Below are positions 3,625-17,780 of a stretch of DNA of 64,000 nt, in pieces; position 1 is the stretch's first letter; every line of letters starts with the position of its first letter. Position numbers and translations under genes: made by a program. The notes under the pieces are model-generated. The model did not search any database, had not been told where the DNA came from, and was given only the letters and a program-made list of their open reading frames with translations. The stretch is from Spiroplasma mirum ATCC 29335. GTDB lineage: Bacteria > Bacillota_I > Bacilli_A > Mycoplasmatales > Mycoplasmataceae. The stretch covers positions 558,001 to 622,000 of the forward strand of contig NZ_CP006720.1 of NCBI RefSeq assembly GCF_000565195.1, given 5' to 3'.

Positions 3625-4146
3625 ATGAATGAAAATAAAGAAATAACTAGACCCGAATTTAAATGAGCATATTATTTATTTTGAACTAAACCAGCTCGCT
3701 TTTATCGTAGAGAATTAGAACGATATGAAGATCAGTTTTTATTAAAATCTGAAAAGGTTAGAAAAAAACAATATAAGATGATTGATGGCATTAATGCATT
3801 TATATTTATTGCTTTGTCTACTTCTTGAACAACTTTACCTAGTTTAGTTGATTTACCACATTGATTACAATGAGCAAAATTAGGAATGTATGATGTATCA
3901 TGACAACATAATTGAGCAGGTGGATTAGTAATGTTTGTAATACCAGCTAGTGTGGGAAGAATAATTCAAAAATCACCATATTGATTCCCTCAAAAACAAA
4001 TGCAATATATTTTAAATTGAATTTTAAAATTATTACCTATTTTAATATTAATATTAACTACTTATTGATTTAAAACTCAACGAGAATATCGAGAATTTAT
4101 TAAATATGAAAAAGAACAATTTAAAAAAGAACTTAATAAAAAATAA
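3625..4146 (+). CDS. Phage-region membrane protein, 173 aa
   Basis: It starts at ATG 11 bases after an AAGGA site and has an exceptional number of TGA Trp codons. There is a charged N-terminus (about 45 residues, many Arg/Lys/Glu), then hydrophobic segments near residues 55-70, 95-115 and 130-150, and a charged C-terminal tail. The topology would suit a lysis or superinfection protein or a virion membrane component; nothing more specific can be said. The next gene follows after 22 bases. Confidence 0.5.
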
Positions 4147-4168
4147 CATTAGAAAGGAGGTTTTTAAT

Positions 4169-4444
4169 ATGGTAAATGCAGTAACTGGTGTTGCAGTTGC
4201 AATTGGTGTAGTTGCTATCTTATTGCTATTAGGATTAATTAAAGCTATTTGTGTAATTAAACGAATTAATGAATGCCAAAATAAAGCATTAATTAAACAT
4301 GAAAAACAATTATATGGAAGTGATAGTGCCGTTGAACTTGCTAAAAATATTAATAAGATTGGTGTTGTTAAAAAACATTCTAAAAAAGTTAAAAAACAGC
4401 AAAAATATCTTAATGCCGTGGATGAATTAATGAATGATTTATAA
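4169..4444 (+). CDS. Small single-span membrane protein, last gene of the rightward phage operon
   Basis: The ATG at 4169 follows a strong GAAAGGAGG site; an in-frame upstream extension to 4106 overlaps the previous gene and is not used. Residues 3-30 form one hydrophobic helix (VTGVAVAIGVVAILLLLGL), followed by a basic 60-residue cytoplasmic tail. It could be a holin-like or coat protein. TAA is 7 bases before the operon terminator. Confidence 0.6.
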   Translation: MVNAVTGVAVAIGVVAILLLLGLIKAICVIKRINECQNKALIKHEKQLYGSDSAVELAKNINKIGVVKKHSKKVKKQQKYLNAVDELMNDL

Positions 4445-4450
4445 AAAATA

Positions 4451-4477
4451 AAAAGAGATATTAATCTCTTTTTTTAT
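4451..4477. terminator. Bidirectional terminator between converging phage operons
   Basis: Hairpin AAAAGAGATATTAATCTCTT flanked by A- and T-runs. It ends the rightward structural operon; the stop codon of the leftward gene (4461-4463) lies inside the hairpin. Confidence 0.8.
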
Positions 4478-4625
4478 TATGGACAATATAATAATTGATA
4501 AAAAATTGAACTCTTTGAGAATTTGTATATAATTCAGGTAACTCATTTCATGATTTTTCTTGATCTTTATTAGTTAAATGAATATTAACATTTCTAATTG
4601 TTCTATTTGGTTTTATTCTTGACAT
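4461..4625 (-). CDS. Small phage protein, 54 aa, ribbon-helix-helix-like appearance
   Basis: ATG (4625) follows GGAGGTTAATA. The product starts MSRIKPNRTIRNVNIHLT: a basic N-terminus with a short beta-like strand (RNVNIHL), then two predicted helices. This is the layout of small ribbon-helix-helix DNA-binding proteins, but the match is by eye only. It is the most distal gene of the leftward early operon. Confidence 0.45.
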
Positions 4626-4671
4626 TATTATTAACCTCCATTCTAATCAAATAATGTTTGTTGAATATTAA

Positions 4672-4812
4672 TTAATTGTTTTTTTTTTTTTTTGCAATAT
4701 TTGGATAAAGATAAGGTGAATCAGTTAATATTAAATTAATACTTTTATCAGGAATTGTTTTTAAATATTCTAATGAATCATTAAGTATTAATTCACCTAA
4801 TTTAGTTTTCAT
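4672..4812 (-). pseudogene. DNA adenine methyltransferase, N-terminal fragment
   Basis: It starts after AAAAGGAGG with ATG at 4812 and gives 46 residues. LILTDSPY matches catalytic motif IV (D/N/S-PP-Y/F) of beta-class N6-adenine methyltransferases, preceded by the usual SLEYLKTIPDKSI context. The frame runs into a 15-A tract (T-tract 4679-4693) and stops at once. The remaining 200 or so residues are absent, because the next gene begins 46 bases further on. The long tract may be where the deletion or slippage happened. Not expected to be active. Confidence 0.65.
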
Positions 4813-6196: not shown

Positions 6197-6889
6197 TTAT
6201 AGTCATTTTAAAAACCTTTCTTTAAAGTTAATATAAAAGTTTTCATTTTGTTTTTTAATTATTGATGGGTCAATTTTATTTATTTTTAATTTATCTTTAA
6301 TTCAAGTTTTAGCTTCTTCAATATAATCAGAATTTAAATCTTTATTTGTAAAAAATGTTTTAATATTATTAAATTGATCTAAACTCATTGAATTTAAATT
6401 ATTAATTTGTTGTTTATTAGTTTCTTTAATAGATTGATTACTATTTTCTTTACTTATTTCAGTATTATCAGGATCTAATTCATCAGTTGCTATTCCAAAA
6501 GTTTTACATAATCAATAACGAGCACCATAAGTTAAAGCACTACCAATTGCTTTTGCAATGTCTGAGTTTTGTGCTGATAAAATAATTCCTAACTCTAATT
6601 TTTCATTACCTTTATAAAGAGTTAATAAACCTTTTGAATAATAACTTGTCATTTTTCCACCTTTAATATTTTCTGATTCCATAAATTTTGGCTCGCCAAT
6701 TGCTTGAATAGTATAAGTTATATGATGTTCTTTTAATTTTGGTTTTAAAGTTTGATATAAGTCACTTTCAGTAAAATAATTATATTTATTAAACTCATTT
6801 CTTGCATTTTTACCAACAAAAATATTTATATTAGATTGAATTTCTCCAATACTTTCAATTAATGTTTTTGAGTTATTATCTTGTTGCAT
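6197..6889 (-). CDS. ERF-superfamily single-strand annealing recombinase
   Basis: ERF proteins anneal complementary single strands in phage recombination. The 230-residue product has the typical layout: helical start, KNARNEFNKYNYFTESDLY at about residues 26-44, a beta core, then the hallmark IAKAIGSALTYGARYWLCK and GIATDELDPDN. The C-terminal 80 residues are a charged linker and tail. I chose the ATG at 6889 over the GTG 15 bases earlier because that GTG lies inside the GAGG ribosome-binding site. The gene overlaps the upstream nuclease by 14 bases; the exonuclease-annealase pairing supports the call. Confidence 0.8.
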
Positions 6890-7525
6890 TTTCTCATTCC
6901 TCACTTTCTTGTCATGTTAAAATTGCATCTTTTATTTGTTCTAAATCTTGTTTAGTAATATTATTTTTTCTTTAATAACTTTTTTTAATTTAGGGTTAAT
7001 AATAATAAACGTTACTTTTTTATTATCAATTTTAAAATCTTTTTCTAATAAGTAATAAAGTTTTAATTGTCAAATATATCTTTCAATATCAATCTTTTCA
7101 TTTGAACTTGTAATTTTTCAATCACACATAATTATTTCATTATTAATTGTTTTACCTATAAAATCAGTTGTTCCACAAAGAATAGGTGTATAGTATTTTT
7201 TTTCAGTTTCATAATTATTAAATTGAATATCTTTAAAAGTTTCTTGATATAGTTTTATAAAATTTTTAAATAATTCACGATGTGACTTTATATTACAATC
7301 AACAAACTCAATTAATTCATCATTAAAATTATTTTTAATTCAATAATCAATCATATTATGTAAACAATTACCACGTTCTTGTGCTAATTTTAAAATATTC
7401 TCATCAATTTGGGAAAAATCTTTTAGCACTAAAATATTAACAATTTGGCTAACACTAGGTATTAAAATACTATACTTATGCAATGCATCATTATAAATAT
7501 ATAAAGGTTTTACATCTAATCTCAT
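6876..7525 (-). CDS. PD-(D/E)XK phage exonuclease, apparent frameshift near the C-terminus
   Basis: Related to RecB/Cas4-type phage nucleases that supply 3' single strands to the annealing protein. Visible motifs are an N-terminal ERGNCLH helix (about residues 50-56), CGTTDFIG and then MCDWKITSS (the D...xK catalytic pair), and RYIWQLKLYYLLE (Q-rich motif). The frame stops early near 6950, but a neighbouring frame continues convincingly (NNITKQDLEQIKDAIL) to TAA at 6876, which overlaps the annealase start. The switch is at AAAGAAAAAA, a candidate homopolymer error. The start overlaps ssb by 10 bases. Confidence 0.7.
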
Positions 7526-7905
7526 AAAATTGCATCATCGCCATTAAAAACAATATAATCGTTATTTTTATTGCTATTATTTTCTTGTGGTTTTTTTGAT
7601 AATACATTATTGTTTGTATGTAAAAATTCATAATTAGATACTTGAACTATTCATTCAATTTTATTATCTTTATTTTTATATGATTGTAAAATACCACTAA
7701 TTGCAATTTGGCTACCTTTTTTACAATATTTTTGCAAAGTAATTGCTTGCTTATTTCAAACTTGGCAAGGAATAAAATCAGTTTCTTTTTGTGTTGAATA
7801 TGGGCGAGTAATTGCTAAATTAAAGATTGTATATTCTTTTCCATTTTGCATTTTTTTAATTTCAATATCTTTTGTTGTTCTACCAATTCCAATAAATTTA
7901 TTCAT
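7516..7905 (-). CDS. ssb: Phage single-stranded DNA-binding protein
   Basis: 129-residue OB-fold SSB. It begins MNKFIGIGRTTKDIEIK, with the usual FNLAITRPY and FIPCQVWNKQA strands and GSQIAISGILQSYKNKD. A polar linker (NNSNKNN) is followed by the acidic tip NGDDAILWD, a variant of the DDDIPF tail that recruits partner proteins. The ribosome-binding site is GGAGAGTGA. Its stop overlaps the nuclease start. It coats single strands for the ERF/nuclease pair; the cell's own ssb should be elsewhere. Confidence 0.85.
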
Positions 7906-9227: not shown

Positions 9228-9365
9228 AAAAAAACAACTCTAATAAGAGTCGTTTTGTCCTACTTCATCGTACAAGATACATTGCTTTATCTTGGGTTGC
9301 TACATTAGGCTTAAGATAAAGTTTATTTATCAAAATATATAACCTAATTATTAAACTTTTAAGTT
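9228..9365 (-). ncRNA. Candidate small RNA or transcript end with strong terminator
   Basis: On the minus strand an inverted repeat, CTTTATCTT...AAGATAAAG (arms 9285-9293 and 9313-9321), is followed by a terminator hairpin AACGACTCT/AGAGTTGTT with seven T (9228-9254). No ORF lies between 9260 and 9439. Either a small RNA starts near 9360 or this insulates the phage promoter from read-through. No clear promoter seen; low certainty for the RNA, high for the hairpin. Confidence 0.4.
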
Positions 9366-10074: not shown

Positions 10075-10526
10075 TAAATAGTTAGTTCTTATTAAAATAA
10101 TAATTTTTAATGTTTATTTTGTTTAAATTTATTAATTGCTTTTTTAATTATTTTGAAAAAATAAAAATAAGATATGAAAAACCTAAGTTAGATAAAGAAA
10201 TATTATTAAAATTAACAATTTAATTAACGAATTAATTGATGTTTTGAATGATTTAAAGTTATGAATCACAGGAAAAACTTTTTAAACTTTATTAATTAAT
10301 AATAAAAGAATAATTTTAGTAAAAAGAGAAATAATAAAATTACATTTTTAAAATTTAACCAAATTTATTAATGAAAATTATTCAAACATGATTTGTGATA
10401 TAAATTTTGTTTATTTACTAACAAAAAATAGTTTTCATAGTTATTTTAAAAACATTGAAGCACAAAATAATAATGTGGAAAAATTAAATGAAATATCTAA
10501 TGAAGGACTTACAAAAATTAATGAAC
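10075..10526. other. Non-coding, AT-rich, with coding relics
   Basis: No intact ORF. Short coherent plus-strand peptide stretches (for example KLNEISNEGLTKINEQ, 10485-10530) suggest a decayed Spiroplasma gene. It ends abruptly at the left arm of the 262-bp inverted repeat. Confidence 0.5.
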
Positions 10527-10788
10527 AAATCCTAGCACAAACCACATTCCCCGGCGTTCTTCTTTAGTTAACTTGAATCGTTCTTGCTGAACACCATTAA
10601 TTTCAAATTCATCAATGGTTGTCATGTGCGCATAGCGATTAATAATTCTTTTTTCAACAATCTTATCGGTTACAAACCATCCTACTAAAGTATAAATGGG
10701 AATTAATAAAATTGTAAAATATCAATTTGATAAAGCATTCATCACTTCCTTGTTAAAAAATGAATTTGTTGAAGAAGTTAATAAAAAT
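10527..10788 (-). repeat. Left arm of exact 262-bp inverted repeat (copy of part of the AbgT gene)
   Basis: Reads on the minus strand as a base-for-base copy of 11521-11782 over every position I compared. It contains codons for residues about 213-299 of the transporter but has no start of its own, and after the arm the frame stops within two codons (GTTCATTAA). Confidence 0.9.
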
Positions 10789-10835
10789 AGTTGGCATTTA
10801 TTTTAACTATCTGTCAATTCAAACATAAAAAAATT

Positions 10836-10863
10836 CTTGCATTATAAAAATAATATAGTATAA
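10836..10863 (+). promoter_or_regulatory. Promoter of the AbgT-family transporter
   Basis: TTGCAT, 16 bases, TATAAT, 23 bases before the start codon. It lies inside the segment bounded by the inverted repeats. Confidence 0.7.
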
Positions 10864-10885
10864 TATTTAATAAGGAGGAATAACT

Positions 10886-12673
10886 ATGAGAGAAAGAACA
10901 GAACAATCGAGGAGTCTTAAGTTTCGAGTAAAATTTAATGCTATTTTTGGGAAGGTCGGAAATAAGACTTTAAATGGGATTGAGTGGTTAGGAAATAAGC
11001 TACCAAAACCATTTTATTTATTTATATATTTAACATTAATTATCATGGTACTCGCGATGATCTTGCATTTTGTGTTTCCGGAGGGAATTACAATTTACAA
11101 TATTTATGTGCGTGAAAATCAACAAGTTGAAAAAGTTTATCAGTTAAAATTCTTTAATTTATTTAGTGGGGAAGGGATTATCTGATGACTTACTAATTTC
11201 ATTACTAATTTTACGGGGCTAGTTACTATTGGTGTTGTGTTAATTACTACCTTATGTATTACGGTTGCTGAAAAATCCGGGTTTATTGATGTGTCGTTAC
11301 AAAAAATGGCATCACGAGTTCCAAAAGTTTTATTAACCCCAGTTTGTATTTTAATTGGTTGTATTTCTTCGGTTGCTAGTGATGCAGGTTATTTAATTTT
11401 AATTCCGTTGGCAGGGGTATTATATTATAAAGCTAATCGTCATCCGCTAGTTGGAATTGTGGCGATGTTTGCAGGAGTATCCGCCGGGTTTGCTGGTAAC
11501 CTAATTCCTGCTTCTAGTGAATTTTTATTAACTTCTTCAACAAATTCATTTTTTAACAAGGAAGTGATGAATGCTTTATCAAATTGATATTTTACAATTT
11601 TATTAATTCCCATTTATACTTTAGTAGGATGGTTTGTAACCGATAAGATTGTTGAAAAAAGAATTATTAATCGCTATGCGCACATGACAACCATTGATGA
11701 ATTTGAAATTAATGGTGTTCAGCAAGAACGATTCAAGTTAACTAAAGAAGAACGCCGGGGAATGTGGTTTGTGCTAGGATTTAGTTTAATTTATTTAACA
11801 ATTATTTTAATAATGATGTTTGTCCCTTATGCGCCGTTTAATGCACCGTTTAACCCTGATTTTAGTGCCACGTTAAATGCTAAAGCCCCAGGATTAGCTA
11901 ACCAGTATAGCATTTTACCACATTTAGTATTAGTGATTGCTTTTCTATTTTTAGGAATTGGTTTAGCATATGGTTATGCTGCGAAAACTTTTAAAACTAA
12001 AGATGACTTTACCGAAACCTTAACTTTTGGTTTAAAACGATCAGCTAGTACCTTAGTAATCTTTTTGGTAATGTCACAGTTTATTGCTACTTTAAGTAAA
12101 ACAAAGTTAGATATGGCTGGTGCTTATTATTTAGGTCAAGGAATTCAAGGAATTAATCCAACATTAACAATTTTTATCTTTGTTGTTTTAATTGCTTTTA
12201 TTAATTTATTTATGGGTTCGTTAAGTGCCAAGTGATTTGTATTAGGTCCAATTTTTGCCATTGCTTTAGAACAAGCAGGAATTCATCCCGCGGCAACAGT
12301 GATGGCATATCGAGTAGGAGATAGTGCCACTAATATTATTTCTCCAATTATGACCTATTTCCCATTAGTTTTAATGTATGGTCAAAACTGAATTAAAAAA
12401 GAACACCATGCTGATTTCAAAATTGGTTCGTTAATGTCGTTAATGGTTCCATATTCATTCTTTTTCTTCCTTAGTTCAACCGCAATTTTCTTAATTTGGT
12501 TTGCCTTAGGAATTCCGGTCGGAGTCAATGGTCCAATCTACATTGAACAATCAGCTTTTGCCTCAACCATTATGAAAGTTGGGGCCAGTGAATGAGTCAA
12601 CATGAACCCAAAAGCATTATGACAAGTTCGGGGATTCCAAATCAACAATAATTTTTCCTACAATTTAAATTAA
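10886..12673 (+). CDS. AbgT-family transporter
   Basis: Integral membrane protein of 595 residues (family usually 500-550) of the AbgT group, known as p-aminobenzoyl-glutamate importers or sulfonamide exporters. A cytoplasmic N-terminus is followed by about 12 hydrophobic segments. Family-like stretches include SVASDAGYLILIPLAGVLYY, FAGVSAGFAGNLIPASSEF and YRVGDSATNIISPIMTYFPL. A charged cytoplasmic insert lies at about 255-290. AAGGAGG precedes the ATG. The gene is intact in this orientation, but residues 213-299 are duplicated in inverted orientation upstream, making a possible on/off switch. Folate-related substrate is a family inference. Confidence 0.85.
11521..11782 (+). repeat. Right arm of exact 262-bp inverted repeat, inside the AbgT gene
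   Basis: Identical inverted partner of 10527-10788. The arms are separated by 732 bp that hold the promoter and codons 1-212. The arm ends exactly on a codon boundary (residue 299). Confidence 0.9.
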
Positions 12674-12814: not shown

Positions 12815-13350
12815 ATGAAAACTTTAAAAATTTTTATTGAAATGCTTTTTAGCAACCACTTGCACTAGCGTAGCGGCGGGTGCGGCGTTAGGAACAGCAA
12901 CAATGGGCAATGCTTGAGGAATGTTTAACCAAACCACAATTGCGTTTTCTTTTGCTTGTAACTGGTTAAAATATCTTACTATTAGTTTTGCTATTTTAAT
13001 TGTTGGATTAATTTTATTACGCTATATCTTTACTCCTAAAATTTTGGTAAAAGAATTACAGGACCCGACGTTAAATAATTTTATTCCCACAATTTTTATG
13101 ACTTGTTTTGTAATTAGTGGTTTTTGTGGTGATCACGGTTTAAGAATGTTACAATTAATTATTTGATTAACGGGGGGGTATTTGCCATTTAATTTATATT
13201 GGGTTTTTTGTTGTCTTTCAAATTTATCATTTTAAGTGAGAAAATTATATTGCTTGGTGGTTTGTTCCACCAATTGGAATTGTTGTTGCCTGTGTAATGT
13301 CAAAAAATGTCGGGGTGAATTATATTACTACCCGCTCTTTTTTGGATTAA
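12815..13350 (+). pseudogene. TDT/TehA-family transporter, decayed fragment
   Basis: A start with AAGGAGA site remains (ATG 12815), but the frame changes after about 12 codons (T5 run) and again near 13225. Fragments read ALGTATMGNAWGMFN, LIVGLILLRYIFTP, FIPTIFMTCFVISGF, GGYLPFNLYWVFC, then HFKWENYIAWWFVPPIGIVV. This order of helices matches the N-terminal half of C4-dicarboxylate/tellurite (TDT) transporters; the second half is missing. Confidence 0.6.
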
Positions 13351-13475
13351 ACATTAAAAACGACTAAACTAATTAATAAGGATTTCAAACATTGAGAATG
13401 TTTAGAAAGCATTATTGACCTCTATGATATTTTATATAAAATGAGAATGTAAATATAAACCCCTTGAGTGTACAT

Positions 13476-16597: not shown

Positions 16598-17780
16598 ATG
16601 AAAAAATACTTTAGCAATTTTAAATTGATTATAAAAAACGATTATTAAATGATAAATCAGTTGGATATATTTTTCTAACAAAACCCCAGTCGAATATCAA
16701 AAATGTTGTTAATTTTTTAGATCTTTTATTTTTATCAAATCAAAACCCGGAAATGATTAAAGAAATTTGTGGTTATCTGGGAGGAATTTATTAATAAAAG
16801 TAAAAATGATGAAGAATTTTTGTTGCATTTAAACCAACATGGTTTTGCTAAATATCCAATTTTACATTATCATAAATTTTTAGCTTCTAGTTTTGAACTA
16901 TTTGTTAAAAAAGAAAATAAAAAAATTAGTAAAGCAAGTTTATTAAAATTAGAAAATCTAATTAATGAAGAAGTTAATAAAATGTTTACTAAATTTTATC
17001 GAATTCTGCAAGACGTTAAATTATATTTATTAGAAAAAGATGTTAATCCCTTATATATTTGGTGACCATACATTGAAGGATTAACCCAATCCCAAAAAGT
17101 ATTTTGCGCTCCCTTATTATTATGACCGGTTAATGAAATTAGTCGCACCAAAAATAAAATTGTATTAGCCACTAAGCACGAGGAAATTTTATTAAACTCT
17201 GCTATTCGGTTAAGTTAAATCAAAGATGGAAATTATAATGTTGCTGAATTTAATTTTGATTCTTTATAATTAACAAATGATATTTTTACCAAAGCAGTGG
17301 GAGATTTACAAACATTAGCGTTCAAAATTAAAAACAAAAATGCTTTAAATAATTTAACTAAATTAAATTATTATAAACAAAAAGATTTAATATTATTATT
17401 AGATCATGCTTTCAATTATGAAAAAAATATCTCTCAACTTTTTGATGCCAGTCAGTTAGCAATTGTTTATGATAGTTATTTAGGAATGTATAATATTTCA
17501 TCAACAACGTTATATCGTGATTATTGTGACTTAGAAAAGATTAGCGATAATTCAATTGACCATCTTTTTAAAAATGAATATCAACTTGAAGAAGACTGGG
17601 ATGAAAATCGGTTAGCATACCAAGCAGAGTTATTAGAAAATTCAGTGCTGGATATTAATTAATTATGATATTTCACAAAAAGTAGCTATTAAAAAAGCCT
17701 TAGAAAAAAATACAATTATTCAAGGCCCACACGGGACCGGAAAATCACAAACTATTAGTAATTTAATTATTAATAATTAA
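16598..17780 (+). pseudogene. Upf1-like superfamily I helicase, decayed N-terminal half
   Basis: The ATG at 16598 has an AGGAAG site, but the frame breaks after 16 codons. From 16769 one frame runs about 300 residues, with two internal TAA codons (after NSAIRLS and NFDSL), through the charged helical N-terminal region of large prokaryotic AAA/Upf1-type helicases. Another shift near 17662 restores QKVAIKKALEKNTIIQGPHG with TGKSQTISNLIINN, a Walker A loop in the Q-motif context of SF1 helicases. The helicase core after motif I is deleted. Confidence 0.6.

Follow-up and report, generated by a model that had tools for sequence, protein, structure and literature searches.

A perfect 262-nt inverted repeat at an AbgT-family transporter gene of Spiroplasma mirum, probably the scar of a recent templated inverted insertion

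The window analysed here, a stretch of 64,000 nt of the Spiroplasma mirum ATCC 29335 chromosome (NZ_CP006720.1, positions 558,001 to 622,000), carries an intact gene for a transporter of the AbgT family (Table 1). Its PF03806 match is full-length, covering transporter residues 28-551, and the protein matches the structures 4R1I and 4R0C; the alignment to these known AbgT structures places residue 299 in the middle of the domain. The gene is preceded by a probable promoter, which was missed by a consensus scan that needs four of six matching positions per hexamer, and by an AAGGAGG Shine-Dalgarno sequence, read from the sequence and conserved in S. eriocheiris. In the sequenced orientation the transporter would be expressed from this promoter of its own. 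The adjoining SLAC1-like gene (PF03595, window 12816-13367) is frame-shifted and corresponds to an intact gene of 359 aa in S. eriocheiris. The GC skew switches sign across the window, and the locus therefore lies in the terminus region.

Table 1 Features at the transporter locus and in its neighbourhood (positions in the 64-kb window).
Feature	Position	Strand	Basis
Operon for Erf-type ssDNA annealing protein, phage-type exonuclease and SSB	6197..7905	-	PF04404 1.2e-19, PF00436 3e-21; phrog_155, phrog_298, phrog_44
Remnant of 521-aa gene, 3′ end replaced by left arm	10310..10526	+	tblastn, residues 365-438, 47% identity
Left junction, microhomology of ~4 nt (AAAT)	10523..10530	.	three-way comparison
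Left arm, inverted copy of transporter codons ~212-299	10527..10788	-	exact repeat, absent in S. eriocheiris
Right junction, microhomology of ~7 nt (ATAAAAA)	10780..10788	.	three-way comparison
Probable promoter TTGCAT-16-TATAAT, between the arms	10837..10864	+	read from the sequence; conserved in S. eriocheiris
AbgT-family transporter, 595 aa, intact	10886..12673	+	PF03806 E=1.6e-115; 4R1I E=7.6e-68; code 4 ORF
Right arm, donor, native transporter segment	11521..11782	+	collinear with S. eriocheiris, 22/262 differences

The left arm of the repeat lies upstream of the transporter gene and the right arm within it, with a spacer of 732 nt. Direct comparison confirmed that the arms, described as an exact inverted repeat in an earlier sequence-only reading, are reverse-complementary at 262 of 262 positions, and their identity stops abruptly at the first base beyond the repeat on both sides. 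A chance origin is excluded at this length, and in a scan with 20-nt seeds the pair was the sole inverted repeat of at least 60 nt in the window. The same reading had placed the promoter and codons 1-212 between the arms, which agrees with the geometry except that codon 212 straddles the boundary of the right arm. The Shine-Dalgarno sequence lies between the arms as well, so the repeat flanks the promoter and the expressed segment, and an inversion would alter expression. When the inversion was carried out in silico, the predicted product was recovered, namely residues 1-299 followed by V-H and a stop (301 aa), and both arms remained intact, making the reaction reversible in principle, as had been proposed.

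We used one relative, S. eriocheiris, as the outgroup for the direction of copying, the type of mutation and the decay of recA. There the transporter and its promoter region (L021) are collinear with those of S. mirum and the left arm is absent; its place is taken by 253 bp belonging to the 3′ end of a 521-aa gene, with flanks that match on both sides. Because the relative lacks the arm and has the 3′ end of another gene between the matching flanks, the copying ran from the right arm, which is the original, to the left. The locus thus shows an inverted copy with an unchanged donor, an outgroup without the arm and acceptor DNA that was replaced, 262 bp being gained against 253 bp lost. At both joints a few nucleotides are common to acceptor and donor, although matches this short abound in AT-rich DNA and may partly be due to chance. 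Searches of plasmid and phage collections returned nothing related to the locus apart from the azoreductase gene, and protein and exact 28-mer searches of the genome contig collection, from which near records may have been left out, gave no match.

The arms do not differ from each other at any position, while the transporter genes of the two species are separated by a dS of 0.42. With mutations accumulating at the neutral rate, the probability of finding no difference is 0.04 if the event dated back 5% of the time since the split. The dN of the transporter is 0.012 (dN/dS 0.03), a ratio that mostly reflects the time before the copying event and is therefore no proof of selection since.

A second, unrelated inverted copy was found in the same chromosome when we scanned a sample of 702 kb of S. 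mirum and 396 kb of S. eriocheiris for inverted repeats. Positions 975158-975369 (L051:15158-15369) are an inverted copy of positions 979483-979694 (L051:19483-19694), 212 nt long with one mismatch and 4.1 kb apart. This copy, too, is absent from S. eriocheiris, and it replaces about 1031 bp of a gene for a membrane protein of 429 aa that is intact there. The left joint has a microhomology of ~14 nt with one mismatch and the right joint little, again in AT-rich DNA where short matches are common; since the sole mismatch lies inside the left-joint microhomology, the copied part is otherwise identical. Having removed most of a gene, this insertion cannot be a switch. The difference in lengths, 1031 bp lost against 212 gained, suggests that the near-equal lengths at the transporter locus are a coincidence. 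The scan thus yielded two long inverted copies in S. mirum and none in S. eriocheiris, but given the share of bases from each genome this difference lacks statistical significance (0.41). Inverted copies that had aged and diverged did not turn up in the scanned S. mirum sequence; either the events are all young, or such copies are quickly lost, or their arms are homogenised.

Other repeats were also noted. In S. mirum, L054:14658-14700 and 17695-17737 form an inverted repeat of 43 bp with 98% identity; its arms are separated by ~3 kb and fall within or close to ~2 kb of sequence that is absent at that place in S. eriocheiris. The sampled S. eriocheiris sequence contains several long direct repeats, among them one of 583 bp with 99% identity (L071:3208-3790 and 4099-4681).

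The usual genes of homologous recombination are broken in S. mirum. recA (chromosome positions 843290-844003, L029) is a pseudogene that has lost its start codon; its Walker A motif GPESSGKT is shifted out of frame, the alignment to S. eriocheiris RecA has a gap of 27 residues, and the C terminus is lost and fused to other sequence. Two TAA stops each interrupt ruvB and recU. A loss of recombinational repair in S. mirum has been inferred independently (PMC9666726), and the same study called recA complete, probably because its frame stays open. Neither the tyrosine nor the serine recombinase family is represented in the genome (no match to PF00589, Phage_integrase, or PF00239, Resolvase), while control genomes gave matches, so that neither a recombinase nor an intact recombination pathway that would act on the repeats was found. 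The operon encoding an Erf-type annealing protein, an exonuclease and SSB stands ~3 kb from the repeat, on an island of ~19.5 kb that is absent from S. eriocheiris and has its right end near position 9283; the S. eriocheiris genome has no Erf match. This operon possibly provides a RecA-independent annealing route, and the repeat may be linked to it.

Taken together, these observations favour a recent templated inverted insertion, non-reciprocal and brought about by RecA-independent template switching, of which the repeat is the scar; to this reading, drawn from sequence comparison, we assign a probability of about 75%. During replication or break repair, a strand that had reached about position 10527 would have changed template to the opposite strand in the transporter gene, ~1 kb distant. 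There it would have been extended by 262 nt, from 11782 down to 11521, before rejoining its own template past ~253 bp of the neighbouring gene, a segment that would thereby have been lost. Template switching and microhomology-mediated templated insertion are known RecA-independent processes (PMC8604942, PMC2621351, PMC7954356), and such a process, having no need of RecA, would fit a genome with broken recA, ruvB and recU; proteins of the Erf operon on the nearby mobile island may have contributed. The event was probably neutral, as it left the donor intact and hit a neighbouring gene that was already a pseudogene or turned into one. Any flipping of the 732-bp spacer would then be an unregulated by-product.

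The sequence-only reading had instead proposed an on/off switch for the transporter, that is, a spacer that inverts at useful frequency and is kept for that reason. The geometry is right for such a device, the Erf operon is close by, and RecA-independent inversion at a repeat of 333 bp reaches 16.8% of a pneumococcal colony (PMC6620402). The proposal nevertheless finds no support in our comparison and appears improbable: the nearest relative compared has no left arm and does not conserve the arrangement, and in S. mirum the arm took the place of the 3′ end of an unrelated gene in decay; its sister scar elsewhere in the chromosome destroyed a gene and has no switching role; recA, ruvB and recU are all defective, and neither an integrase nor a resolvase family was found; and a single orientation is found in the S. 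mirum assembly, the same as in S. eriocheiris, both S. mirum repeats standing in the ancestral orientation. A site-specific inversion was dropped for want of a recombinase. It is more conceivable, if still doubtful, that the repeat is a scar whose spacer flips at measurable frequency and leaves a minority of cells without the transporter. Accidental flipping may occur, because the pneumococcal spnIII locus inverts without RecA (PMC6620402) and the S. mirum genome has an Erf annealing operon, and template switching between inverted repeats is known to invert spacers in yeast, although those spacers are only a few bases long (PMC8604942). The stronger version, in which the repeat flips spontaneously, perhaps aided by Erf, and leaves some cells of every population without the transporter, a switch born of a copying error, is speculative and seems to us unlikely.

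The identity of the arms had been put down to a recent event or active homogenisation, a fair alternative, of which the recent event is favoured. An old repeat whose arms stay identical because they are repeatedly copied from one another would account for two repeats that are both near 100% identical and for the lack of diverged ones, and homogenisation of arms by template switching is known (PMC8604942); we nevertheless regard it as unlikely, as a recent origin explains the data equally well without an ongoing process and the usual recombination genes are broken. A left arm that is a chimera or the product of a wrong gap closure would be compatible with the fact that one S. mirum assembly was built from 454 reads with a mean length of 255 bp, shorter than the repeat, and PCR gap closure (PMC9666726), and with a filled length that almost equals the ancestral one. 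Such an artefact has a low probability, however, since the overlaps at the joints are at most ~7 nt, too short for an assembler to bridge, and in the second case the lengths lie far apart and one mismatch has been kept; moreover, the assembly analysed here (1,132,608 bp) and the published one (1,132,591 bp; PMC9666726) differ in length. Gap filling, which the equal lost and gained lengths had suggested, was dropped as the second case does not share this property. An insertion sequence was also rejected, there being no element in the arm and both ends lying in unrelated genes. Finally, rightward transcription of the left arm would give an RNA that pairs without mismatch with codons 212-299 of the transporter mRNA and could act in antisense, but promoter-like matches in the region do not exceed chance (20 against 22.2 expected), which makes this the least credible of the explanations considered.

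The templated inverted insertion implies that a genome without RecA, RuvB and RecU can still gain long perfect inverted repeats when neighbouring sequence is copied in one direction. With two cases in one chromosome, this amounts to a mutational signature whose instances can be counted in mollicutes with degrading genomes, and this recurrent signature in a recombination-poor genome is the more useful finding here. Each new repeat is raw material for an invertible switch, and S. mirum could serve to examine whether repeats of this sort invert in the absence of RecA.

In the vpma/Xer1 system of Mycoplasma agalactiae and the vsa/HvsR system of M. pulmonis, DNA is inverted at short sites by a dedicated recombinase. 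An inversion at the S. mirum locus would resemble these systems in moving a promoter in a wall-less bacterium, but the S. mirum genome encodes no PF00589 or PF00239 protein. The pneumococcal spnIII (hsdS) locus also has long inverted repeats in coding sequence, and high-frequency inversion at its 333-bp repeat requires neither RecA nor any known recombinase; in contrast to the S. mirum locus, its repeats are shared between hsdS genes and conserved among strains, and its inversion has been measured (PMC6620402). The S. mirum copies also resemble template-switch mutations of the quasipalindrome or four-point type and microhomology-mediated templated insertions, which likewise consist of an inverted copy of nearby sequence with an unchanged donor and a replaced acceptor; these have microhomology at their joints, as the S. 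mirum copies may have, and arise without RecA (PMC8604942, PMC7954356, PMC2621351). Compared with the short quasipalindrome cases, the S. mirum tracts (262 and ~212 nt) and the distances bridged (0.7-4 kb) are larger, and the host is a mollicute that has lost its recombination genes.
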